Origin: Methanobrevibacter millerae
GTDB taxonomy: Archaea > Methanobacteriota > Methanobacteria > Methanobacteriales > Methanobacteriaceae
NCBI RefSeq assembly: GCF_900103415.1
Contig: NZ_FMXB01000001.1
Location: 62,001-126,000 of the forward strand
DNA length: 64,000 nt
Direction: 5' to 3'
The translations under genes and the position numbers were made by a program. Of this stretch, positions 32,437 to 44,117 are shown piece after piece. Each line of letters begins with the position of its first letter. The first letter of the stretch is position 1. The notes below the pieces were generated by a model that searched no databases, had not been told where the DNA came from, and worked only from the letters and a program-made list of their open reading frames with translations.

Positions 32437-32814
32437 ATGACAGACAGAAAAAATTATGAAGATATCTCTGATGGCGTTTGTGAAGTATTTGACTCTCATG
32501 AGGATGTCATTGAACGTGTACAGAAACGGATGATTGATGAAGAGCAATATTCTGAATTGTCCGAGTTCTTTAAAATCTTCGGCAATCCTACACGATTAAA
32601 AATACTTTCTCTACTGACTATTGAAGATTTATGTGTTTGCGACATTTGTGAAGCATTAAATTTAAATCAAACTACTGTTTCAAATCAATTAAGAATATTA
32701 AGAGCACATAATATTGTCAAATATCAAAAAGAAGGAAAAATGGCTAGATACTCTCTAACTGATCTTCATATTGAAATGATATACAAAGTTGGCTTGGAAC
32801 ACATCTTGGAATAA
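32437..32814 (+). CDS. CadC/SmtB-type ArsR-family metal-sensing repressor
   Basis: 125 residues. The winged-helix core (about 35-110) has the CadC-like metal box DLCVCDICEAL in the helix before the recognition helix TTVSNQLRILRAH. The cysteines fit soft-metal (Cd/Pb/Zn) binding, as in CadC. It probably represses itself and the following P-type ATPase through the palindrome at 32352-32373, releasing DNA when metal binds. Start ATG 32437 follows GGGA at six bases; an earlier in-frame ATG at 32425 lies inside that region. Confidence 0.88.
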   Translation: MTDRKNYEDISDGVCEVFDSHEDVIERVQKRMIDEEQYSELSEFFKIFGNPTRLKILSLLTIEDLCVCDICEALNLNQTTVSNQLRILRAHNIVKYQKEGKMARYSLTDLHIEMIYKVGLEHILE

Positions 32815-32833
32815 AACTCTAAAGGTGTTGTCA

Positions 32834-35329
32834 TTGGAAAAGAATAAATGTTATGACCCTGATTGCGAAAAAGAAGAATGTCATGATCCAGAACATTACA
32901 ATTATATTTGTTTTGATCCGGATTGTGACGATGTTCACTGTGAAAATCAGAAACATTACAATAAGCAATTATTAAAAGATTATCAAGAAAGTACAGATTT
33001 AAGCGTATATGACCACAGGGAAGAAATAGATTATGATGAGGATGTTGACATAAGCCTCTGCGCTTGTCCTGATTGTGCGGATGACGACGACCATGACCAT
33101 GACCACGGTCACGAACATCATCATGACCACGATCATGAGCACGGACATGACCACAATCATGACCATGACCACGGTCACGAACATCATCACAATCATGAGC
33201 ATGAGCATCATCACGGTCACGAACATCATCACGATCATGAGCATGAGCATCATCACGGTCACGATCATGAGCATGGACATGAGCATCATCATGATGAGAA
33301 AGATACCTGTACTGATGACAGCTGTGGCTGTCACGACCACGACCATGACGATGATGTTGAATTCAGCCTTTGCGGCTGTCCGGATTGTGCAGATGACGAT
33401 GATGGCCATGGACATGACCACGGTGACGGAGAATTGCTTGCAGAAGGAAAACCTTTAATTTACAACAGGCCAATCCAAATCATCGTTGCAAGCGGCCTTA
33501 TGTTCGCATTGGGACATATCCTTGAATTCCTATCATTTTCCCAAACGGTTATCACGATTGTTTACATGATAGGTGCTGTAATAGCAGGTTATGAAATTGC
33601 AATAATGGCCTATAAGTCACTTGTCAAAAGACACACTGTTGGACCTGCAATGTTAATGTGTATTGCTTGTGTTGCCTCATTTATCATAGGACATCCTGAA
33701 GAGGGTGCAGCTGTTACATTCCTTTACTATATTGCGGAATTCCTGGAAGACTATGCAGAATACCGCTCAAAAAGGTCAATCAAGTCCCTGGTTGAAATCG
33801 CCCCTGATACCGCAAGGGTAAAGGTCGGTGACGGTGAAGAAATCAAAAACGTTGAAAACGTCGAAATCGGCGATATTGTTATAGTAAAACCTGGAGATAA
33901 GGTTCCTCTGGACGGAAAAGTTGTCTTCGGTGCATCTTCAATAAATCAAGCTTCAATTACAGGTGAAAGCGTGCCTGTGCATAAGGAAGTCGGTGATGAG
34001 GTATTTTCAGGTACTGTCAATGAAGATGGATATCTGGAAGTCGAAGTAACCAAGGAAGCAAAAGATTCTGTAATTTCAAAAATCGTAACATTAGTTAAAA
34101 GATCACAGCTCAACCGTTCCGAAACGGAAACTCTGGTTGAAAAGGTCGCCAAATATTACACTCCGATAATGATGGTTGCAGCGATAATCGTAGCTTTCCT
34201 TCCACCTCTGTTATTCGGTCTGGATTTATACGACTGGGTTTACAAGGCACTTTCACTTCTGGTAATATCATGTCCTTGCGCATTTCTGATTTCAACGCCT
34301 GTGGGAATGGTTTCAGCCATTACATCAGCTACAAGAAACGGTGTTATCATCAAGGGAAGTACATATGTTGAAGAGATGAAAAACATCAAGGCCGTAATCT
34401 TTGACAAGACAGGTACATTGACTGAAGGTAAACTTCATTTAAGCGAAGTGGAAGTCTTTGACGAATCATACTCCAAAGAGGACATCGTAAAGATAGCAGC
34501 TTCTCTTGAACATGAATCTTCACACCCTATCGCTCAGGCAATTGTAAATTATGCAGGTGAAAACGAAATAGCTTTAGAAACAATCAGCAACTTCAAAAAC
34601 GTTCCTGGAAAAGGTATTATTGCAGACATTAACGGCGAAGAATTCTATGCAGCAAACGAGCCGCTGATTGAAGAATCAAGCTTTGACGTATCAAAGGATA
34701 AAATCAATGAGATTGCTGAAGGCAAGACCCTGGTATTTGTTGGAAATTCAGAGAAGGTTTTGGCCATTATCACGGTTTCCGATACGATAAGGGAAAACGC
34801 TTCAGAAGTCATTGCCGATTTAAACAGTCAGGGCATACAAACAGTTATGCTTACAGGTGACAATAAGCTTGCAGCCAAGGCGGTTGCGGATGAAATCGGA
34901 ATCGGCTATGTCTATTCCAACTTAATGCCTGAAGACAAATTAAATATTCTGGATACAATCAGAAACAAATTCGGTGAAGTGGCCATGATTGGAGATGGAA
35001 TTAACGATGCTCCTGCACTTGCAAGGGCAAATATCGGTATTGCAATGGGTGCTGCAGGTTCCGACGTGGCAATTGAAACGGCTGACGTTGCATTGATGCA
35101 GGACGATATTTCAAAACTGCCTTATCTCTTCTCATTAAGCCGCAAGACAATGACAATCATTAAGCAGAACATTACGGTGGCCATTGCCATCAAGCTGCTC
35201 TGTGTAGTGCTGGCAGTTCTTGGAATCATTACGTTAATGATGTCTGTCGGTTTCGGAGATTTAGGATTGACCCTGCTGGTTATCCTCAACTCATTTAGAA
35301 TTGGAATGGTGAAAGATCCACTATTCTAA
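32834..35329 (+). CDS. Heavy-metal P1B-type ATPase with His-rich N-terminal domain
   Basis: Metal efflux pump of 831 residues. N-terminus: Cys-rich pairs (CYDPDCEKEEC, CFDPDC), then a His/Asp/Glu tract at about residues 86-156 between two CxCPDCADDDD modules. Core: membrane helices from about 215, CPC motif with Cys480 in helix 6, phosphorylated Asp524 in DKTGT, SSHP in the N domain, and GDGINDAPAL. The CPC type moves Zn, Cd or Pb, and the His tract suggests Zn or a soft metal. TTG start six bases after AAGGTG (32822-32827), 19 bases after cadC, hence one operon. Confidence 0.92.
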   Translation: MEKNKCYDPDCEKEECHDPEHYNYICFDPDCDDVHCENQKHYNKQLLKDYQESTDLSVYDHREEIDYDEDVDISLCACPDCADDDDHDHDHGHEHHHDHDHEHGHDHNHDHDHGHEHHHNHEHEHHHGHEHHHDHEHEHHHGHDHEHGHEHHHDEKDTCTDDSCGCHDHDHDDDVEFSLCGCPDCADDDDGHGHDHGDGELLAEGKPLIYNRPIQIIVASGLMFALGHILEFLSFSQTVITIVYMIGAVIAGYEIAIMAYKSLVKRHTVGPAMLMCIACVASFIIGHPEEGAAVTFLYYIAEFLEDYAEYRSKRSIKSLVEIAPDTARVKVGDGEEIKNVENVEIGDIVIVKPGDKVPLDGKVVFGASSINQASITGESVPVHKEVGDEVFSGTVNEDGYLEVEVTKEAKDSVISKIVTLVKRSQLNRSETETLVEKVAKYYTPIMMVAAIIVAFLPPLLFGLDLYDWVYKALSLLVISCPCAFLISTPVGMVSAITSATRNGVIIKGSTYVEEMKNIKAVIFDKTGTLTEGKLHLSEVEVFDESYSKEDIVKIAASLEHESSHPIAQAIVNYAGENEIALETISNFKNVPGKGIIADINGEEFYAANEPLIEESSFDVSKDKINEIAEGKTLVFVGNSEKVLAIITVSDTIRENASEVIADLNSQGIQTVMLTGDNKLAAKAVADEIGIGYVYSNLMPEDKLNILDTIRNKFGEVAMIGDGINDAPALARANIGIAMGAAGSDVAIETADVALMQDDISKLPYLFSLSRKTMTIIKQNITVAIAIKLLCVVLAVLGIITLMMSVGFGDLGLTLLVILNSFRIGMVKDPLF
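33088..33300 (+). repeat. Histidine-codon tandem repeat tract within the metal ATPase gene
   Basis: The tract is built from CAT/CAC/GAC/GAG codons. A perfect 29-base repeat starts at 33194 and 33236 (period 42). A longer, imperfect repeat of GACCATGACCACGGTCACGA recurs at about 33093 and 33162. It encodes the metal-binding His-rich domain and is expected to vary in length between strains. Confidence 0.75.
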
Positions 35330-35387: not shown

Positions 35388-36761
35388 ATGTTGGGTAATG
35401 ACAGTTTAAACAGTGTAGACATAATGCTTGGAAATCCTAAACAGGCATTGCTTAAGATGTCTATACCTCTCATTATCTCATTGCTTATTTCAAGTCTCTA
35501 CAATCTCATTGACGCCGCCTGGGTGTCAGGCCTCGGTGCAGATGCCCTTGCAGGTGTTGGTTTTTTCACTCCGATTTTCATGATTCTCGTCGGCTTTGGA
35601 AACGGCTTGGGTGCGGGCTCAGCGTTCGCAATTTCCAAATATGTCGGTGAGGAAAACAAGCCAAAGGCAGACAATGCTTCAATCCATTCGATATTCATTA
35701 ATGTCATTTTATCAGTCATTATAACAATAATTTTATTACTTTTTCTTGAAACAATATTGGATGCCATGGGCGCAGGCCAAACCATTAATTACGCAACAGA
35801 TTATGGTGTAATAATGCTTGCGGGTTCCATATTGGTTATCATGTCAAACGCTTTGTATGGAATCTACAGGGGAGAAGGTGATACCCAACGTCCAATGTAT
35901 GCAATGGCAGCTTCAGCAATCCTCAACATGATTCTGGACCCGATTTTCATTTATTCGTTAAATATGGGAGTAAAAGGGGCGGCAATCGCAACGTTAATAT
36001 CTTCTCTTTTCGTTATCCTGATATTAATTTACTGGCTTTATATCAAAAAAGACACTTATCTAAAGCCTGTTCTATCCAATTTCGCCTTTAAAAGGGATAT
36101 TTCTTTTGATATCATAAAGGTGGGAATTCCCGCAAGCCTGCAGCTTTTAAACAACGCATTCTTTGCAGCGGTCTTTTCAGCGCTTCTTGCATTTGTAAGT
36201 TCAACGGATTCTGTGGCTGTATATTCGACAGGCTGGAGAATAGTCACCATAGGAACAACGCCGATGCTGGCTATTGGAACGGCATTAATAAGCATCATTG
36301 CAGCCAATTATGGGGCAAAAAACTACGAAAACATTAAAATTGCCCACAGGTATGCCATGAAGATTTCAATGGTTTTCGCCTTTTTGGTAGCTATACTGAC
36401 CAATGTCTTTGCAGGGGACATTGCATCGCTTTTCACTTCTACTGGAAGCAGCGCAAGGATAGCTGGAGAACTGACAAGCTTTTTACAGTGGATTGTAATC
36501 TATTATCCGACGATGGCGGTCGGTGTGGCTTCAACTTACGTTTTCCAGGGAATCGGACGTGGAGTAACCGCAATGTTTCAGACAATCATGAGGGAAACGG
36601 GCTTCACGATATTCTTTGCGGTTCTTTTGGCGGTGGTATTTGATTTCGGTGTTTGGGGAGCCTGGATGGGAATCGTTTTGGGTGAGGTCGTATCAAACAA
36701 CATTACTATGGTGTGGGCTGATTTAACTATAAAAAAATTGATTAATATTAATGATGATTAG
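35388..36761 (+). CDS. MATE-family efflux transporter
   Basis: Cation-coupled multidrug-type exporter of 457 residues with about twelve helices. The paired MATE features are PLIISLLISSLYNLIDAAWV in helix 1 and YRGEGDTQRPMYAM between helices, with a mirrored half in the C-terminal portion (FQGIGRGVTAMF). A T-rich gap of 58 bases separates it from the metal ATPase, so a link to metal resistance is unproven. Convergent and overlapping by four bases with the ABC ATPase gene on the other strand. A second MATE gene is at 47127. Confidence 0.9.
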   Translation: MLGNDSLNSVDIMLGNPKQALLKMSIPLIISLLISSLYNLIDAAWVSGLGADALAGVGFFTPIFMILVGFGNGLGAGSAFAISKYVGEENKPKADNASIHSIFINVILSVIITIILLLFLETILDAMGAGQTINYATDYGVIMLAGSILVIMSNALYGIYRGEGDTQRPMYAMAASAILNMILDPIFIYSLNMGVKGAAIATLISSLFVILILIYWLYIKKDTYLKPVLSNFAFKRDISFDIIKVGIPASLQLLNNAFFAAVFSALLAFVSSTDSVAVYSTGWRIVTIGTTPMLAIGTALISIIAANYGAKNYENIKIAHRYAMKISMVFAFLVAILTNVFAGDIASLFTSTGSSARIAGELTSFLQWIVIYYPTMAVGVASTYVFQGIGRGVTAMFQTIMRETGFTIFFAVLLAVVFDFGVWGAWMGIVLGEVVSNNITMVWADLTIKKLININDD

Positions 36762-37372
36762 GCACCATTAATATCTTTCAGATAGATTTTGTCGTCACAT
36801 ATCGTATTTATCAAATCCATATCGTGGCTGACAAGCAGGAATCCCATATTTCTTTCCTTAACTATTTTTAAAACGGAATCCAGAATCTGAACCTGGGTGA
36901 TTGCATCCAGCATAGTGGTCATTTCGTCAGCTATTATGAATTTGGTTTTCGGATTCAGTGATCTCAATACGGAAAACCTTTGAAGCTCTCCTCCGGACAG
37001 TTCCTGAGGGAACCTTGTAAGCCAGCTCTTTTGAATTCCGAACTCGGAGAGTATGTCGTCAGGAACTTCCCATGATTCTTCAAGCACCTGCTTCATTTTC
37101 CATTTCGGATTCATTACCTTTTCAGGGTGCTGATATATCAGCTGAACAGGTTTGAATCCTTTTTTGGGAAGTGGTTGACCGTCCAACGTTACGCTGCCTT
37201 CATATTTGTCAACATATCCTGATAGGATTTTGCATAACGTTGATTTTCCGCTTCCACTGTCTCCAATCAAACCTATGATTTTTTTGTTGTCCAACTCAAG
37301 GTTAACGTCTTTTAACTGGTATTTTTTAGCGGAGGGATATTTAAATGAAATATTTGTTGCCTTAAGTTCCAT
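36758..37372 (-). CDS. Nickel/peptide ABC transporter ATPase, NikE-like
   Basis: 204-residue ATPase with Walker A GDSGSGKST, signature LSGGELQR, Walker B FIIADEMTTMLD. The Dpp/Opp/Nik ATPase pair is usual, and this is the shorter (E) type. Start chosen at ATG 37372, six bases after AAGGTG and one base after the stop of the partner gene, showing tight coupling. An upstream in-frame extension would overlap the partner by 85 bases. The matching permeases and binding protein are at 40066-43560 on the other strand. Confidence 0.85.
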   Translation of the reverse strand: MELKATNISFKYPSAKKYQLKDVNLELDNKKIIGLIGDSGSGKSTLCKILSGYVDKYEGSVTLDGQPLPKKGFKPVQLIYQHPEKVMNPKWKMKQVLEESWEVPDDILSEFGIQKSWLTRFPQELSGGELQRFSVLRSLNPKTKFIIADEMTTMLDAITQVQILDSVLKIVKERNMGFLLVSHDMDLINTICDDKIYLKDINGA

Positions 37373-37373
37373 C

Positions 37374-38321
37374 TTATTCACCTTCCTCGTATTTGAAACA
37401 TCTGATTTTCTTATCTCCCATGTCACGCAATTGCGGCCTTTCGTTTTTGCATCTTTCAAAGCGCATTTCGCATCTGCTGTAGTAAGGACATCCTTCCTGT
37501 ATTTCTCCGTGCAGTGGCTGATGGCCTTTTACAAGTTCGAATCCGTTTGCAGGCAGTGCCTTGTACAGCGATTTGGTGTACGGGTGAAGAAGGTTTTCAC
37601 CGTCTCCTGAGAAGTCTTCTGCTTTGGCAATTTCTATAACGTAACCTGAATAGAAGATTCCGATTCTGTCTGCAACCTCAAGAGCTGCATGAATATCGTG
37701 AGTAATCAGAAGGACTCCGACACCGTCCTCTTTCATGTGTCTGAAATGATTCAAGGTTTCTTCTACGGTTTTTTCATCAAGACCTGGCGTAGGCTCGTCT
37801 GCAACGACCAGTTTAGGGTCGGATAACAGTGCGGTTGAAACCAGAACTCTTCTGGCCATTCCTCCGGACAGCTGGAAAGGATACATTTCATCCACGTCAG
37901 GGCCAAGGTTATAATGCTCGAAGATTTCCCTTTGTTTGATTTTCTTTTCCGCTTTTTCTTCCTTGCTGTCGATATGTCCGATAGCCTGGTCGGAGATTTT
38001 CATTAAAGGATCTAAGAAGTTAACGGATTGTGGAATTAATGCTATTTCTTTTCCTCTAAGTTCTTCCTTGTCTTCCTGTGATAATTCTTTTCCTTTATAG
38101 CTGATTTTTCCGTTCAGGTTTGCATTTTCGGGAAGTATTCCGAATATTGCGTGTGCAAGCAGACTTTTCCCGGAACCGCTTGAACCCAAAACCGCTAAGA
38201 TTTCTCCTTCGGAAACATCTAAAGTCAAATCTGTTATTACTTTTAGTTCTCTTTGATTTAATCCCTGGGTGTATTGTATAAAAGAAATAGAAACGTTTTC
38301 TACGTCCAATACCTTTTCCAT
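37374..38321 (-). CDS. Nickel/peptide ABC transporter ATPase, NikD/DppD-like
   Basis: 315 residues. Walker A GSSGSGKSL, signature LSGGMARR, Walker B LVVADEPTPGLD, then the C-terminal oligopeptide-family extension with the cysteines CPYYSRCEMRFERC that often hold an Fe-S or zinc site in Dpp/Nik ATPases. It pairs with the NikE-like protein to energise the permeases encoded at 41723-43560. The promoter faces the paired operator at 38415-38457. TATATAAAAG lies about 40 bases upstream of the ATG. Confidence 0.85.
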   Translation of the reverse strand: MEKVLDVENVSISFIQYTQGLNQRELKVITDLTLDVSEGEILAVLGSSGSGKSLLAHAIFGILPENANLNGKISYKGKELSQEDKEELRGKEIALIPQSVNFLDPLMKISDQAIGHIDSKEEKAEKKIKQREIFEHYNLGPDVDEMYPFQLSGGMARRVLVSTALLSDPKLVVADEPTPGLDEKTVEETLNHFRHMKEDGVGVLLITHDIHAALEVADRIGIFYSGYVIEIAKAEDFSGDGENLLHPYTKSLYKALPANGFELVKGHQPLHGEIQEGCPYYSRCEMRFERCKNERPQLRDMGDKKIRCFKYEEGE

Positions 38322-38414
38322 TTAATCACCTTTTTTAGTGTTATGTGTTTCAAATAATAACTTTTATATACTAATTTGAACCTTATCAATATTAAAGTTA
38401 TTTAAAAATAACTG

Positions 38415-38457
38415 AAAAGTATTACCGATAACATAAATTCTGTAGAAAAAGTAATAC
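38415..38457. promoter_or_regulatory. Paired operator between nikD-like gene and GNAT gene
   Basis: AAAAGTATTAC at 38415-38425 and AAAAGTAATAC at 38447-38457. Their centres (38422, 38454) are 32 bp apart, three helical turns, the same spacing as at 39982-40028. It lies in the 153-base divergent gap and could serve both the ATPase genes and the GNAT gene. Confidence 0.6.
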
Positions 38458-38474
38458 ATTAATGTGGTGTAACG

Positions 38475-39038
38475 ATGTATGTGATTATCAGGGAGCTAAG
38501 CAACGATTCGGAATTAATCAGCAATGTTCAGGATTTTCTCTTTAAGCAGATTAAAATCGAATTCGGCTATGACTATGTTCCCCAATGGCATCAGGACATC
38601 GTTAAAATGAATGAATATTACATTAACCCTGAAAAAAATAACTTTTTTGTAGCTTTCAATGGCAAAACCAATGAAATCATAGCAACCATCGGCATAAGGG
38701 CATATGACAAGGATTTTGAGGAGTTCAGGCATCTCTATTCTGAGGAAAAGACATCAAGCATCTGGAGACTTTTTGTTGATAAAAGATACAGGCGCTGCGG
38801 TCTTGCTTCAAAGATGTTCAGCGTAGCCGAAAGATTTGCAAATCAATGCGGTTATGAGGAAATCTACCTGCATACTCATAGAAATTTAAATGGTGCTCTT
38901 GAATTCTGGACAAAAATGGGCTTTGTCATTACTCTTGATACGAATGATGATCTTGAAACCGTCCACATGGACAAAAAGATTCAGGGTATTGAGCTTACTT
39001 CCCCTCAGTCTGTCTTTAATTATGCCGTTGAACTTTAG
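38475..39038 (+). CDS. GNAT-family N-acetyltransferase, copy 1
   Basis: 187 residues. The acetyl-CoA loop is RRCGLASKMF (Arg/Gln-x-x-Gly-x-Gly/Ala type), after SSIWRLFVDKRY. Overall it closely resembles the second GNAT at 43620: both share IRAYDKD, SIWRL, and YLHTHRxL. The natural substrate is unknown. It is driven from the gap containing the paired operator, five bases after GGTG, and overlaps the convergent Fe-S gene by four bases. Linked regulation with the transporter suggests it modifies a transported or metal-binding small molecule, a pure inference. Confidence 0.8.
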   Translation: MYVIIRELSNDSELISNVQDFLFKQIKIEFGYDYVPQWHQDIVKMNEYYINPEKNNFFVAFNGKTNEIIATIGIRAYDKDFEEFRHLYSEEKTSSIWRLFVDKRYRRCGLASKMFSVAERFANQCGYEEIYLHTHRNLNGALEFWTKMGFVITLDTNDDLETVHMDKKIQGIELTSPQSVFNYAVEL

Positions 39039-39724
39039 TGCCTGATGTATTTTTGAGTGTGCGGACAGGCGAATATGCATTTCCCGCATACGGTATCTGC
39101 TTTTCCCAAATTTTCATATGAGACTTCCAGAGCGTATTTCTCACATTTCTTGTCATCGTAAAAGTCGTTTCTTTTAAGCGTATAGTTCCATGGTATTCCG
39201 CTTATTGCGTTTCCAGGGCAAGCGTCCCTGCATTCCATGCATTTTCCGCATTTTGATTTAAGTATCGGCTTTCCGAAATCCAGTTGGGCATTTGTCAATA
39301 CTGAAGACAGCCTTAGGGCTGATCCGTATTTGAATGTCGTAAAGAGTGCTGATTTACCGATCCAGCCGAGTCCCGCTCTTGTGGCAATGGTCTTGTGGGG
39401 CAGTTCGAATGAGTTGAACTCTCCGAAGTCCCCGCCCAGTCTCTTTTTGGTTTGGGCATAGGCTTCATATCCCTCGTCAATCAGGAAATTTTCGCATTTC
39501 ATTCCTATATCGTCCAGTCTTGAATTGATGCTTATCAGCTCTTCAAGATATTCCTGGGTCGGTGCGTTTCCCATGTTTCTAATTATCTCTTTGGGATATG
39601 TCAGGTAAAATACGATGCCTGTATTCAATCCAGGTTTTGGACTGAATCCGTTTATGTCTGCAAATCCTACTTCCTTTGCACCGTTTTTAAGTATGAATTT
39701 TCTTAATTTTTCAGAGAGTGTCAT
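39035..39724 (-). CDS. Double 4Fe-4S protein, epoxyqueuosine-reductase-like
   Basis: 229 residues. N-terminal domain (about 1-150) resembles the cobalamin-binding part of QueG-like proteins, including AGLGWIGKSALFTT. The C-terminal ferredoxin-like region has CGKCMECRDACPGNAI and CGKCIFACP, enough cysteines for two 4Fe-4S clusters. Methanogen relatives are of unknown role; true QueG is not expected in archaea. It lies within the transporter group, with a copy of the transporter operator 38 bases upstream (39762-39776), so it is likely coregulated. Confidence 0.7.
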   Translation of the reverse strand: MTLSEKLRKFILKNGAKEVGFADINGFSPKPGLNTGIVFYLTYPKEIIRNMGNAPTQEYLEELISINSRLDDIGMKCENFLIDEGYEAYAQTKKRLGGDFGEFNSFELPHKTIATRAGLGWIGKSALFTTFKYGSALRLSSVLTNAQLDFGKPILKSKCGKCMECRDACPGNAISGIPWNYTLKRNDFYDDKKCEKYALEVSYENLGKADTVCGKCIFACPHTQKYIRH

Positions 39725-39761
39725 TGCAATTAATTTGCTCCTAATATTATTTAAATTTAAT

Positions 39762-39776
39762 AAAAGTATTACTTTT
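39762..39776. promoter_or_regulatory. Single copy of the AAAAGTATTACTTTT operator
   Basis: AAAAGTA-T-TACTTTT, a perfect odd palindrome 38 bases upstream of the Fe-S gene start. A weaker GTATAAT lies near 33 bp away, so this site may act alone. The gap 39725-40065 otherwise holds AT-rich sequence, an inverted repeat at 39944-39965 and the paired operator at 39982-40028. Confidence 0.55.
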
Positions 39777-39943
39777 CTTTTTCTTATATTAAAAAAATGT
39801 ATAATTTTAATACTTATTTTTTGTATTGTAGTGTAATTTTACTTAATATAAGTTATGATATTGTAGAATTTATTTATATTTAAATTTTCTATATTTTAAT
39901 TTTTTAAACATACTTTAACTGTAATAAAAATCTTTTTATATAT

Positions 39944-39965
39944 TTGTTCTCAAATATAAGAACAA
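39944..39965. repeat. Inverted repeat upstream of the binding-protein gene
   Basis: TTGTTCT, eight-base spacer, AGAACAA. It follows a TATA-like TTTTTATATA at 39933-39942 and could be a second operator or a leader hairpin. No other copy was found in the window. Confidence 0.4.
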
Positions 39966-39981
39966 TATTAAAATATTTCAT

Positions 39982-40028
39982 AAAAGTATTACTTTTTACT
40001 CATATTTCTATGAAAAAGTATTACTTAA
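39982..40028. promoter_or_regulatory. Paired operator before the binding-protein gene
   Basis: AAAAGTATTACTTTT (39982-39996) and AAAAGTATTACTTAA (40014-40028), centres 32 bp apart. The spacing equals that of the pair at 38415-38457. It lies 38 bases before ATG 40066 and downstream of the TATA-like element at 39933, as expected for a road-block repressor. Confidence 0.65.
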
Positions 40029-40065
40029 TTTTAATATTGCATTTAAATAATTTAGGTGAAAAATT

Positions 40066-41673
40066 ATGGACAAAAAGATAATTATTGGTATTATCGCTGC
40101 AATCGTCATTATCGGAGGTCTTGCCTATGCATTCATGGGCAACGGTGTCGGTGACGACGATCCAACCCATTTGGTTGTAGCAGCACACAGTAATATTAAA
40201 GAACCAAAAGCTGGTTTCGATCCTCTCACAGGTTGGGGATGCGGACACCAGAATTATAATCCTTTAGTACAAAGCTGTTTATTTAAAACAAACGGCTCCG
40301 GTGAATTTGCTCCGGATCTTGCAACGGATTATTCAATAAGCGAAGATGGAAAAACTTGGACAGTAAACATTCGTGATGACGTTAAATTCTCAGACAATTC
40401 AACCTTAAATGCTGAAGACGTTGCATTCACATTCAATACTGCAAAAAAACTAGAAACTGACTTGGATTTAACCAACCTTGAAAATGCAACTGTAGTAAAT
40501 GATACCTGTGTTGAATTCCATTTGGTAGAACCTAGATCAACATTCATTTACGACTTAAGGTATCTTGGAATTGTTCCTTCTGATACATATGACAACAATA
40601 CTTACGGTCAAAAACCAATCGGTTCTGGACCTTACGTTTTAGACCACTGGGATAAAGGTCAACAGGCAATTTTCAAAATAAATGACAATTACTACGGACA
40701 AAAACCTTACTTCACTCAAATTACCTTATTGTTCCCTGAAGAAGCAACCTGGTTAGAATTAGCTAAATCCGGTGATGTAGATGTTGTGCCTGTTGCAACT
40801 TCCGCATTAAACCAAAGCGTTAACGGATACCAGTTCGTTGAAAAATCTGCCGGTAGGGCACAAGGTGTTTCCTTACCATATCTCCCTGACACTGGAATCG
40901 TAACAAATGACAGTTACAAAGTAGGTAACAACGTCACTGCTGACCATGCTATCAGAGAAGCATTAAACGTCGGTATTGACCGTAATAAAACTGTACAATC
41001 CGTATTTGCAGGTCACGCTTCACCTGAATACACTGGTGTAGATACAAGGGATTACGCAAACCCTGACGCTAAAGTTCAGGATGGTGACATCGACAGAGCA
41101 AAACAAATCCTCGCAGAAGGAGGATGGAACGATACTGACGGAGACGGAATCGTTGAAAAAGATGGTGTAAAAGCTTCATTCGATTTATACTACCCTCCTG
41201 ACTATCTCGACAGACAATCTCTATCAACCGTATTTGCTGAACAGGCAAAAGAAATAGGTATTGAAGTAAAACTTGTCGGTGCTGACTGGGATACCATTTA
41301 TGCAAACATGTACAGCTCAGCCGCTTTAATGCAACAGACTTCCCCAGACCCATACAAATCCATTTACCAACAATACCACAGTAAAGAGATGGACGGTTTC
41401 TACATGAACCCTAACTTATACAACAACTCTGCTGCGGACGCTTTAATGGAACAGGCTATGGCTTCTAACGACTTCGCTCAAGCTAACAGCTTATGGTCAC
41501 AATCCGCATTAGTTAACGGCGGAGGTTGGGGTCCTGCTGGTGACGCTCCATGGGTATGGATTGCTAATTACGACTACAACTACTTCATTAAAGACGGTAT
41601 CAATATCGGAAGCCAACCTGACGGATTAGGAAACGATATTTTAATAAACATTTGTGAATGGACAAGGGCTTAA
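40066..41673 (+). CDS. Nickel/peptide ABC transporter substrate-binding protein
   Basis: 535 residues, SBP family 5. An N-terminal hydrophobic helix (about 4-25, no lipobox cysteine) anchors it to the outer face of the membrane. Family features include LATDYSISEDGKTWTVNIR, GSGPYVL and HAIREALNVGIDRNK. The family covers dipeptides, nickel and metallophores, and the ligand cannot be fixed by eye. Codon use is like highly expressed genes. Starts nine bases after AGGTG. A T-rich tract follows, probably giving more binding protein than permease. Confidence 0.88.
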   Translation: MDKKIIIGIIAAIVIIGGLAYAFMGNGVGDDDPTHLVVAAHSNIKEPKAGFDPLTGWGCGHQNYNPLVQSCLFKTNGSGEFAPDLATDYSISEDGKTWTVNIRDDVKFSDNSTLNAEDVAFTFNTAKKLETDLDLTNLENATVVNDTCVEFHLVEPRSTFIYDLRYLGIVPSDTYDNNTYGQKPIGSGPYVLDHWDKGQQAIFKINDNYYGQKPYFTQITLLFPEEATWLELAKSGDVDVVPVATSALNQSVNGYQFVEKSAGRAQGVSLPYLPDTGIVTNDSYKVGNNVTADHAIREALNVGIDRNKTVQSVFAGHASPEYTGVDTRDYANPDAKVQDGDIDRAKQILAEGGWNDTDGDGIVEKDGVKASFDLYYPPDYLDRQSLSTVFAEQAKEIGIEVKLVGADWDTIYANMYSSAALMQQTSPDPYKSIYQQYHSKEMDGFYMNPNLYNNSAADALMEQAMASNDFAQANSLWSQSALVNGGGWGPAGDAPWVWIANYDYNYFIKDGINIGSQPDGLGNDILINICEWTRA

Positions 41674-41722: not shown

Positions 41723-42712
41723 ATGAACAAGAAAAAGGTATTGAAGTTTTTCGGATACAAATTTGTTAGATTCATAATATTGATGGTTGCTGTTGCAATC
41801 TTTAGTTTTGTACTATTAGATTTATCCCCTATTGATCCAGTTAATGCTTATTTAAAAGGTGCTGCTGTATCTCCGGCTCAAAGAGCAATTCTTGAACAGT
41901 ATTTTGGTGTTGGAGTGCCGTTGCCTACTAAAATCTATCACTGGCTGTTGGATTTGATTCAGGGTAATCTTGGTACCTCATTGATTTATCGCGCTCCTGT
42001 AATTGACGTAATCATTGATAAGTTCGTGACTTCTCTTGCATTGATGTCATTATCTTGGATATTTAGCGGAATCATCGGTTTTGCATTAGGCATCGTTGCA
42101 GGTAAAAACAAAGGATCCTGGATTGATAAAGCTGTAAAAGTTTACTGTTACGCAATTCAATCTGCACCATCCTTCTGGGTCGGTATGCTTGTTTTAATGG
42201 TATTTGCAGTTTATCTGGGATGGTTCCCAATCGGATTCGGTGTTCCTATAGGTACCAAGAGTACGGATGCGACATTCCTGGAATGGGCGTCACGTCTGGT
42301 GCTTCCTACATTGACGCTGAGTCTGGTCGGTCTGGCGCCGATTGCAATGTACACGCGTAATGAATTGGTTAGCGTATTATCCTCTGATTATATATTGTTT
42401 GCAAAATCAAGAGGTGAAAAAGGTTGGAATTTAATTAAAGACCATGGTATCAGGAACATATTATTGCCGGCAATCACATTGCAGTTCATGTCATTCAGTG
42501 AACTCTTCGGAGGTGCTGTACTTGTGGAACAGGTATTTTCCTATCCCGGTATCGGTCAGACTGCTGTAGCGGCGGGTCTTCAGAATGATGTTCCGCTGTT
42601 TTTAGGAATTGTTGTAATCAGTGCAATCTTTGTATTTGTAGGTAACCTGCTTGCGGATATTTCCTATTACTTTATAGATCCAAGAATCAAGGAGAATGAG
42701 TTCAATGATTAG
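41723..42712 (+). CDS. Nickel/peptide ABC permease, NikB/DppB-like
   Basis: 329 residues with six helices. The family opening is FVRFIILMVAVAIFSFVLLD, with LSPIDPVNAY. The coupling motif is EKGWNLIKDHGIRNILLPAI, followed by EQVFSYPGIGQ near the C-terminus. Together with the next gene it forms the membrane channel, powered by the NikDE-like ATPases at 36758-38321. Start follows AAGGGGG at ten bases or less. The stop overlaps the next gene by eight bases. Confidence 0.9.
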   Translation: MNKKKVLKFFGYKFVRFIILMVAVAIFSFVLLDLSPIDPVNAYLKGAAVSPAQRAILEQYFGVGVPLPTKIYHWLLDLIQGNLGTSLIYRAPVIDVIIDKFVTSLALMSLSWIFSGIIGFALGIVAGKNKGSWIDKAVKVYCYAIQSAPSFWVGMLVLMVFAVYLGWFPIGFGVPIGTKSTDATFLEWASRLVLPTLTLSLVGLAPIAMYTRNELVSVLSSDYILFAKSRGEKGWNLIKDHGIRNILLPAITLQFMSFSELFGGAVLVEQVFSYPGIGQTAVAAGLQNDVPLFLGIVVISAIFVFVGNLLADISYYFIDPRIKENEFND

Positions 42713-43560
42713 AAAAAAACAGGACGATAAGAAACAGTGGTTTGTATACAATGCAAACCTCAGGACAAAAACTCTTGTTATCATTGCTATTTCAGTAGTG
42801 GTTATTGCAAGTATCCTGATAGCCAGCCTATTCATTGGGGAGATTCCAACAAGCTTTGCAAGCGCAAATCAAATGCCTTCACTGGAACACCTTTTCGGTA
42901 CTGATTGGATGGGTAGAGACATGTTTCAGCGAACCATTGCGGGACTTGCATTAAGTCTGACTGTAGGTATCATTGCTTCTGCAATCAGTACAGTCATTTC
43001 CATTATTTTGGGACTGTTTTCAAGTTTCAACAGGTTTGCTGATGAAATAGTTGCAGGAATCATTGACTTATTCGGATCAATACCTCACATTCTTTTGATT
43101 ATTCTTGTTTCCATCATGTTCGGTGGAGGAACCTTCGGGGTTATCATGGGTGTAGGTTTAACTCACTGGACTCCTCTCGCAAGGGTTCTCAGATCCGAAG
43201 TAAAGGAAATCAAAACAAAGGAATTTATTGCCTTAGCCCAAAATTTCGGTAGATCTAAGGCTTGGATTGCAATGAAACATATTTTTACCGTTGGTTATTT
43301 CCCAGATTATTGTGGGTGTTATTTTGATGTTCCCTCACGCAATTATGCACGAGGCTGCTATAACATTCTTAGGATTCGGTTTACCACCTCACGAACCTGC
43401 AATTGGGGTAATCCTGTCTGAATCAATGCACTATCTCTCATCAGGATACTGGTGGTTGGCATTCTACCCTGGTATGTCCCTGCTGATTGTTGTATTGCTC
43501 TTTGACTTAATCGGTGAAAGTGTTGAAAAATTACTCAATCCTGAAACTGCACATAAATAA
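42705..43560 (+). pseudogene. Nickel/peptide ABC permease, NikC/DppC-like, frameshifted
   Basis: Second permease, about 284 residues if corrected. The first part runs from ATG 42705 in frame through KAWIAMKHI. It continues one frame later as LPLVISQIIVGVILMFPHAI to LNPETAHK. The join is the run of five T at 43282-43286: removing one T restores HILPLVISQ. Both parts are of full family quality (GLTHWTPLARVLRSEV, HEAAITFLGFG). Without correction the chain ends at 43421 with 45 unrelated residues and lacks its last two helices. Either a sequencing error, a recent inactivation or programmed slippage. Confidence 0.85.
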
Positions 43561-43619: not shown

Positions 43620-44117
43620 ATGGATTTTGAAATCAGGCAAATTAATGATGATGAAATCAGCCTAGCCCAATCTTTCCTGTTTGACCAAATCAAGAAGGTT
43701 TATGGAATCGACAGGATGCCTGAATATCATTATGACATCGACGATTTGGAGAAATATTACCTTTTGCCGCCTCGAAACAATTTTTACATTGCTTTTAATG
43801 GGGATGAGATTGTAGCAACCGCAGGCATTAGGGCATACGATAAGGATTATGAAATCTTTGAAGGCATTTATTCGGCCGAAAACACTGCAAGCATTTGGAG
43901 GTTAATGGTCGATGAAAAGTATAGAAGGCATGGCCTTGCACGTAATCTTGTAGGCAAAATGGAAGAATTTGCACGCAGCCAAAAATATGATAAAATTTAC
44001 CTTCATACACATAGATATCTTGATGCAGCCATTGCATTCTGGAAGTCTTTAGGCTATGAGGTAACAGTCGAAGAAGACGATTATGACGAAACAAGCCACA
44101 TGGTTAAAAATTTATAA
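43620..44117 (+). CDS. GNAT-family N-acetyltransferase, copy 2
   Basis: 165 residues, a clear relative of the protein at 38475: shared DQIKKVYG/DFLFKQIK start region, IRAYDKDYE, SIWRLMVD, YRRHGLARNL and YLHTHRYLDAA. It lacks the C-terminal 20 residues of copy 1. The two copies sit at either end of the nickel/peptide transporter group. GGGGG precedes the ATG by six bases. The acetyl acceptor is unknown. Confidence 0.8.
   Translation: MDFEIRQINDDEISLAQSFLFDQIKKVYGIDRMPEYHYDIDDLEKYYLLPPRNNFYIAFNGDEIVATAGIRAYDKDYEIFEGIYSAENTASIWRLMVDEKYRRHGLARNLVGKMEEFARSQKYDKIYLHTHRYLDAAIAFWKSLGYEVTVEEDDYDETSHMVKNL

Follow-up and report, generated by a model that had tools for sequence, protein, structure and literature searches.

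A palindrome pair with three-turn spacing as a probable nickel operator, most likely read by NikR, in Methanobacteriaceae

In the genome of Methanobrevibacter millerae (2.72 Mb), a 15-bp palindrome occurs in pairs 32 bp apart before genes of a NikABCDE-like transporter, and the same arrangement was observed across the Methanobacteriaceae. Judging from these sequence patterns, the sites probably serve a nickel-responsive repressor as operators; this repressor, most likely NikR, would govern the nickel-starvation regulon of this family. The window referred to below is the whole stretch of DNA analysed, which comprises 64,000 nucleotides.

Results

Operator sites in the transporter locus

On the minus strand of the locus lie the genes for a NikD/OppD-like ATPase (37374..38321), a NikE-like ATPase (36758..37459), and a 4Fe-4S protein that is distantly QueG-like (39035..39724). 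The plus strand carries a GNAT acetyltransferase gene (38475..39038), the gene for a NikA/CntA-like solute-binding protein (SBP_bac_5; 40066..41673), whose nearest named relative, from a M. millerae MAG, shows 86% identity, the genes for NikB-like (41723..42712) and NikC-like (42696..43560) permeases, and a second GNAT acetyltransferase gene (43620..44117). Because the reading frame of the NikC-like gene is split in two overlapping frames (42696-43421 and 43291-43560), this gene is interrupted or contains a sequencing error. We also noted a P-type ATPase gene near the transporter (32789-35329) that encodes a very long His/Asp-rich N-terminal stretch and has no exact operator site.

Five sites built on the 15-bp palindrome AAAAGTAWTACTTTT (AAAAGTA-W-TACTTTT) were found in the locus, all of them centred where the first-pass annotation had placed them. 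The first pair lies between the NikD gene (minus strand) and the GNAT gene (plus strand), 3' of the predicted GNAT start; it consists of AAAAGTATTACCGAT (38415..38429, centre 38422), which has a decayed right half and is about 30 bp from that start, and AAAAGTAATACATTA (38447..38461, centre 38454). The second pair lies between the Fe-S gene (minus strand) and the binding-protein gene (plus strand), 3' of the predicted binding-protein transcription start; a perfect palindrome (39982..39996, centre 39989) is located about 25 bp, and AAAAGTATTACTTAA (40014..40028, centre 40021) about 57 bp, 3' of this start. In both pairs the centres are exactly 32 bp apart, and a single perfect palindrome, AAAAGTATTACTTTT (39762..39776, centre 39769), was confirmed 38 bp 5' of the Fe-S gene, both as originally described. 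A site near the position of this single palindrome is also present in most relatives. The palindrome is perfect at 39762 and 39982, one side is decayed at 38415, 38447, and 40014, and the 11-mer AAAAGTAWTAC occupies 38415-38425, 38447-38457, 39982-39992, and 40014-40024.

Start sites were predicted from TATA boxes. By eye, a TATA-like element, TTTTATATACT (38362..38372), was recognized that could serve both the GNAT gene on the plus strand and the NikD gene on the minus strand. For the binding-protein gene, alignment of 33 upstream regions revealed a conserved TATA element on the plus strand, TTTTTATATATTT (39933..39945), with the operator pair downstream of the predicted start. The description of the pairs as flanking divergent promoters can be refined: both pairs lie between divergent genes, but classical repressor geometry applies only to the GNAT and binding-protein promoters, because it is their predicted starts that the pairs lie downstream of.

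The pair before the binding-protein gene (39963-40039) is flanked on the plus strand by a conserved inverted repeat, TATTAAAATA ... TATTTTAATA, with its left arm at 39963..39974 and its right arm at 40028..40039; the right arm is shifted yet kept in some relatives. The 5' leader could possibly fold into a hairpin. The arms are conserved and complementary, and the fold z-score was -4.4 in the window, weaker in relatives (range -4.4 to -0.4). Because these scores were uneven and covariation was almost absent, a leader hairpin was rejected as the main function and is given here as a side observation.

Spacing and conservation across relatives

The first-pass reading depended on the spacing being conserved in close relatives. 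Indeed, the pair at the binding-protein promoter was spaced at 32 bp in 35 of 36 orthologues and at 31 bp in the other one, and on the GNAT side 23 of 30 relatives have the pair at 32-34 bp. At the binding-protein promoter the two sites are retained but much of the spacer has drifted, with the exception of a central A/T tract.

A gene-blind survey of 60 genomes for two sites 17-47 bp apart was then evaluated on the first 125 distinct pairs listed, which came from 24 genomes. Among these 125 pairs, which are not independent since the genomes are related, 52 were spaced at 32 bp, 23 at 33 bp, and 13 at 31 bp (88 at 31-33 bp), and a second peak of 13 pairs was observed at 43-44 bp. Two-turn spacing was virtually absent from the same 125 pairs, with none at 22 bp and 0-1 each at 20, 21, and 22 bp. 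The two peaks bear out the helical phasing, three turns between sites, that had been suggested from the window. The common spacing was shared by unrelated promoter sequences, namely those of nikM, the binding protein, the ATPase, hmd, and nicotianamine synthase.

The exact 15-mer was present in 122 of 139 Methanobacteriaceae genomes, with the control near zero. In a scan of the phylum, the pair was detected in 95 of 132 genomes, all of them Methanobacteriaceae, and the reversed control scored in one genome. Before nikM in two outgroup families, a looser pair, GTATTAC or TTATTAC-N26-GTAATAC, was found; in one of these families the DNA around the gene has 48-50% GC. Taken together, these findings support the initial reading of the sites as the operator pair of a metal regulon. 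That reading was framed for the present locus; the pair stands, but the site is distributed far more widely than this operon, apparently over a family-wide nickel regulon.

Candidate DNA-binding protein

NikR was detected in 125 of 139 genomes, in all 17 genera, and some MAGs without a NikR match carry the sites; most of these are incomplete, and missing contigs may explain the lack. In this genome NikR is encoded at C30:18661-18888 (E 1.5e-30). Its ribbon-helix-helix (RHH) part is nearly invariant, the DNA-contact strand has the residues R-S-S, like that of Pyrococcus and H. pylori NikR, and the four metal ligands (His/His/His/Cys) are intact, as judged from alignment of the ligands and the RHH strand to 2bj1 and 2ca9. 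Furthermore, GTAWTAC, a half-site of the canonical NikR type (GT-N3-AC / TRWYA), is present in both members of each pair, and the sites are located in nickel-uptake promoters (nikMNQO, the NikABCDE-like operon, hypB, and others), which is also characteristic of NikR. These results suggest that the most likely binder of the sites is NikR.

The comparison with NikR made in the first-pass annotation thus holds for the choice of the candidate, but not for the spacing: published half-sites are 20-21 bp apart (PMC545781, PMC5385501). Instead of the canonical 20-22 bp between centres, the 31-33 bp class accounted for 88 of the 125 pairs listed. Because the two-turn spacing, a defining feature, was looked for and not found, we do not class the sites as canonical NikR boxes; they appear to be a NikR-like variant operator. 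A longer NikR linker that would explain the wider reach was not found. A site within 300 bp upstream of nikR occurred in only 1 of 29 genomes; in this genome there is no site near nikR, and nikR is not beside a transporter. Autoregulation was accordingly rejected as proof of NikR binding, since 28 of the 29 genomes have no site in those 300 bp. A Fur/Nur/Zur box was also rejected, as a Fur-family protein is absent from this genome (no PF01475 match) and only partial matches were obtained in 5 of 21 genomes.

It is conceivable that the same nickel regulon is controlled by a different archaeal repressor, for example a winged-helix protein that binds each 15-bp palindrome as a dimer and contacts its neighbour 32 bp off, in which case NikR would have another job. 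A winged-helix dimer would fit a 7-1-7 palindrome with A4/T4 flanks as well, and the spacing of 32-33 bp instead of 20-22 bp and the lack of a site at nikR point in the same direction. Against this stand the GTAWTAC core, which is of the type published for NikR, the occurrence of NikR in all 17 genera, and the absence of a Fur/Nur-type protein here; moreover, none of the regulon loci was seen to have a candidate regulator gene next to it. We regard such a repressor as unlikely, though by no means negligible, and NikR is kept below as the most likely binder.

Genes associated with the sites

In this genome, the exact 15-mer occurs 8 times, and the 12-mer AAAAGTAWTACT gave 34 matches as compared with 5 for the reversed pattern. 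Outside the window, exact sites precede nikMNQO, a P1B ATPase gene, an mcr operon, and a gene for a DUF3344 surface protein, and another is found before a second CbiM/N pair beside a secreted FmdE-domain protein. Weaker sites near hypAB, a CDF transporter gene, mrt, mtd, eha, and fdh are candidates only; for mcr, mrt, mtd, eha, and fdh, the nearby sites are either single or weak. Another motif, TTAATACTTTTAATAAGGTATTAAT, is common to the mrt and mtd promoters (L010:3180-3280 and L010:8400-8460) and looks like the site of a different regulator. In addition, a CsoR/RcnR-type repressor gene was noticed beside heavy-metal ATPase pieces (L010:503-2719); it and the mrt operon are divergently oriented, and the region separating the two holds a weak operator site.

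We took 60 loci solely for a 31-33 bp pair, inspected the neighbour genes, and counted them by hand. Nickel genes adjoined 45 of these loci: nikMNQO in 14, the NikABCDE-like/GNAT/nicotianamine synthase group in 16, the P1B ATPase gene in 9, hmd with hcgG (HmdC) in 3, cfbA in 2, and hypB in 1. The hmd gene encodes the nickel-free [Fe]-hydrogenase, hcgG is its cofactor gene, and cfbA encodes the F430 nickel chelatase. In M. marburgensis (Methanothermobacter), Hmd, HcgG, presumed nickel transporters, and one NikR homologue are increased under nickel limitation (PMC12350162), and so is the transcription of hmd and mtd (PMC3087415); the operator thus stands before genes whose nickel response has been measured in a related genus.

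The nicotianamine synthase (NAS) gene had a pair upstream in 8 of 22 loci, and the NAS gene of this genome has no exact site. NAS-like genes (PF03059) with the operator were observed at L157, L158, L178, L190, L225, and L226, several of them divergent from a GNAT gene; the combination of an NAS-like gene and an Opp-type transporter suggests a possible archaeal nickel chelator system. Among the remaining 15 loci are those of surface proteins, DUF3344 and others, and a conserved gap in the vicinity of prefoldin and hisA-like genes. Large surface proteins of the DUF3344 type had 32-bp pairs in several genomes (L025:7092-15680, L177:2450-2560, and L193:2537-2640); they are possible nickel-regulated surface proteins, but a connection of this type with nickel is not known, and their pairs count against the proposed reading. 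Beside the prefoldin-beta gene, a conserved 33-bp pair (L015:8030-8180, L196:2527-2575, L201:2476-2525, and L207:2486-2535) faces a gap of about 600 bp before the hisA-like gene, with no clear ORF and no Rfam match to a known RNA; the gap may perhaps specify an untranslated RNA.

Some of these genes could also be read as answering not to nickel but to cobalt, to zinc, or to more than one metal: the ECF component CbiM carries the name 'cobalt' in NCBIfam, the best score of the P1B ATPase is for the general heavy-metal type, a site is associated with a CDF gene in this genome, and one tetrapyrrole methylase gene adjoins a pair. However, hypA/hypB, the nickelochelatase gene cfbA, hmd, and hcgG are coherent together as a nickel response, and Hmd and HcgG rise under nickel limitation in the related genus (PMC12350162); we consider the other metals very improbable as the signal. 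Mimicry of paired sites by AT-rich DNA and duplicated promoters is hardly credible even though the region is AT-rich and the P1B ATPase promoter has tandem near-copies, since in the window exact AAAAGTAWTAC gave 7 strand-matches as against 0.11 expected and GTAWTAC-N25-GTAWTAC gave 2 as against 0.03, numbers reached in 0 of 100 shuffles each, chance was likewise rejected by the reversed-pattern controls, the sites persist although many bases of the spacer have changed, and the spacing is common to many unrelated genes.

Discussion

We infer repression, nickel as the signal, NikR as the binder, and cooperativity from the sites, their spacing and conservation, the gene associations, and the presence of NikR. 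In the proposed mechanism, each 15-bp palindrome would present a GTAWTAC core to a symmetric dimer, and two palindromes 32 bp apart, that is, three helical turns, would lie on the same face of the DNA and be joined by protein contacts. If the binder is NikR, its half-sites here would be one helical turn further apart than those of bacterial NikR. When nickel is ample, the metal-loaded repressor would occupy the pair. In the first layout, that of the binding-protein gene, the pair just downstream of the start would block RNA polymerase. In the second, that of nikMNQO and the P1B ATPase gene, a 33-bp pair straddling the TATA box would exclude TBP/TFB; indeed, 16 of the 22 pairs at 33 bp enclosed a TATA-like element, as compared with 4 of 58 at 31-32 bp. 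Both positions, after the start and around the TATA box, would fit a repressor. When nickel falls, the repressor would leave, and the uptake systems and nickel handling genes would be turned on, in several relatives together with hmd, for the nickel-free [Fe]-hydrogenase, and the cofactor gene hcgG.

On balance we lean slightly towards the broader view that the three-turn operator acts as the master switch for nickel in the Methanobacteriaceae, read by an extended NikR or by a novel archaeal repressor that responds to nickel, and turns on uptake, a nicotianamine-like chelator system, and the [Fe]-hydrogenase route together. The replacement of [NiFe]-hydrogenases by [Fe]-hydrogenase in methanogens that run out of nickel is already known at the protein and transcript levels; no DNA signal for it was found in the literature searched, and the master switch, if true, would explain at the level of transcription how methanogenesis shifts when nickel is limiting. 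One short operator that is easy to score would tie nickel import to the handling of nickel for F430 and hydrogenases and, in several species, to hmd/hcgG, so that in major methane producers of the gut and rumen the response to nickel becomes directly testable. No archaeal NikR operator was found in the literature searched. According to PMC10617489, Rodionov et al. 2006 examined NikR sites in eight methanogen genomes; the spacing may have been noted there, which limits its novelty. The structural question is raised of how a NikR-type tetramer, or another binder, spans three turns and not two.

Several known systems resemble the one described here. Fur/Zur/PerR boxes are 7-1-7 palindromes and share the 15-bp form of the present sites, but their sequence differs and a Fur family protein was not found in this genome. 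The staphylococcal cnt metallophore system is similar in its Opp-type binding protein, as the one here has a CntA score, and in the CntL/nicotianamine-synthase-like gene, which is under the same operator in several relatives (NCBIfam); however, the present system is archaeal, the scores are far below the CntA/CntL cut-offs, and GNAT genes lie alongside. In delta-proteobacteria, NikR operators follow the pattern GTGTTAC-N13/14-GTAACAC, with a distance of 20-21 bp between centres (PMC545781). They share the GT-N3-AC half-sites with those found here, one listed as GTaTTAC, and likewise precede nikMQO operons and a nickel-free hydrogenase, hydAB (PMC545781), whereas here the centres are 32-33 bp apart and the half-sites are themselves symmetric palindromes with A/T tracts. 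In H. pylori, NikR operators have the form TRTTA-N15-TAWTA with pentamer centres 20 nt apart, and the TAWTA core is contained in GTAWTAC (PMC5385501). The R-S-S DNA-contact strand and a regulon of uptake and nickel-enzyme genes are also common to both; the half-sites, in contrast, are separated by two turns in H. pylori and by three turns here.
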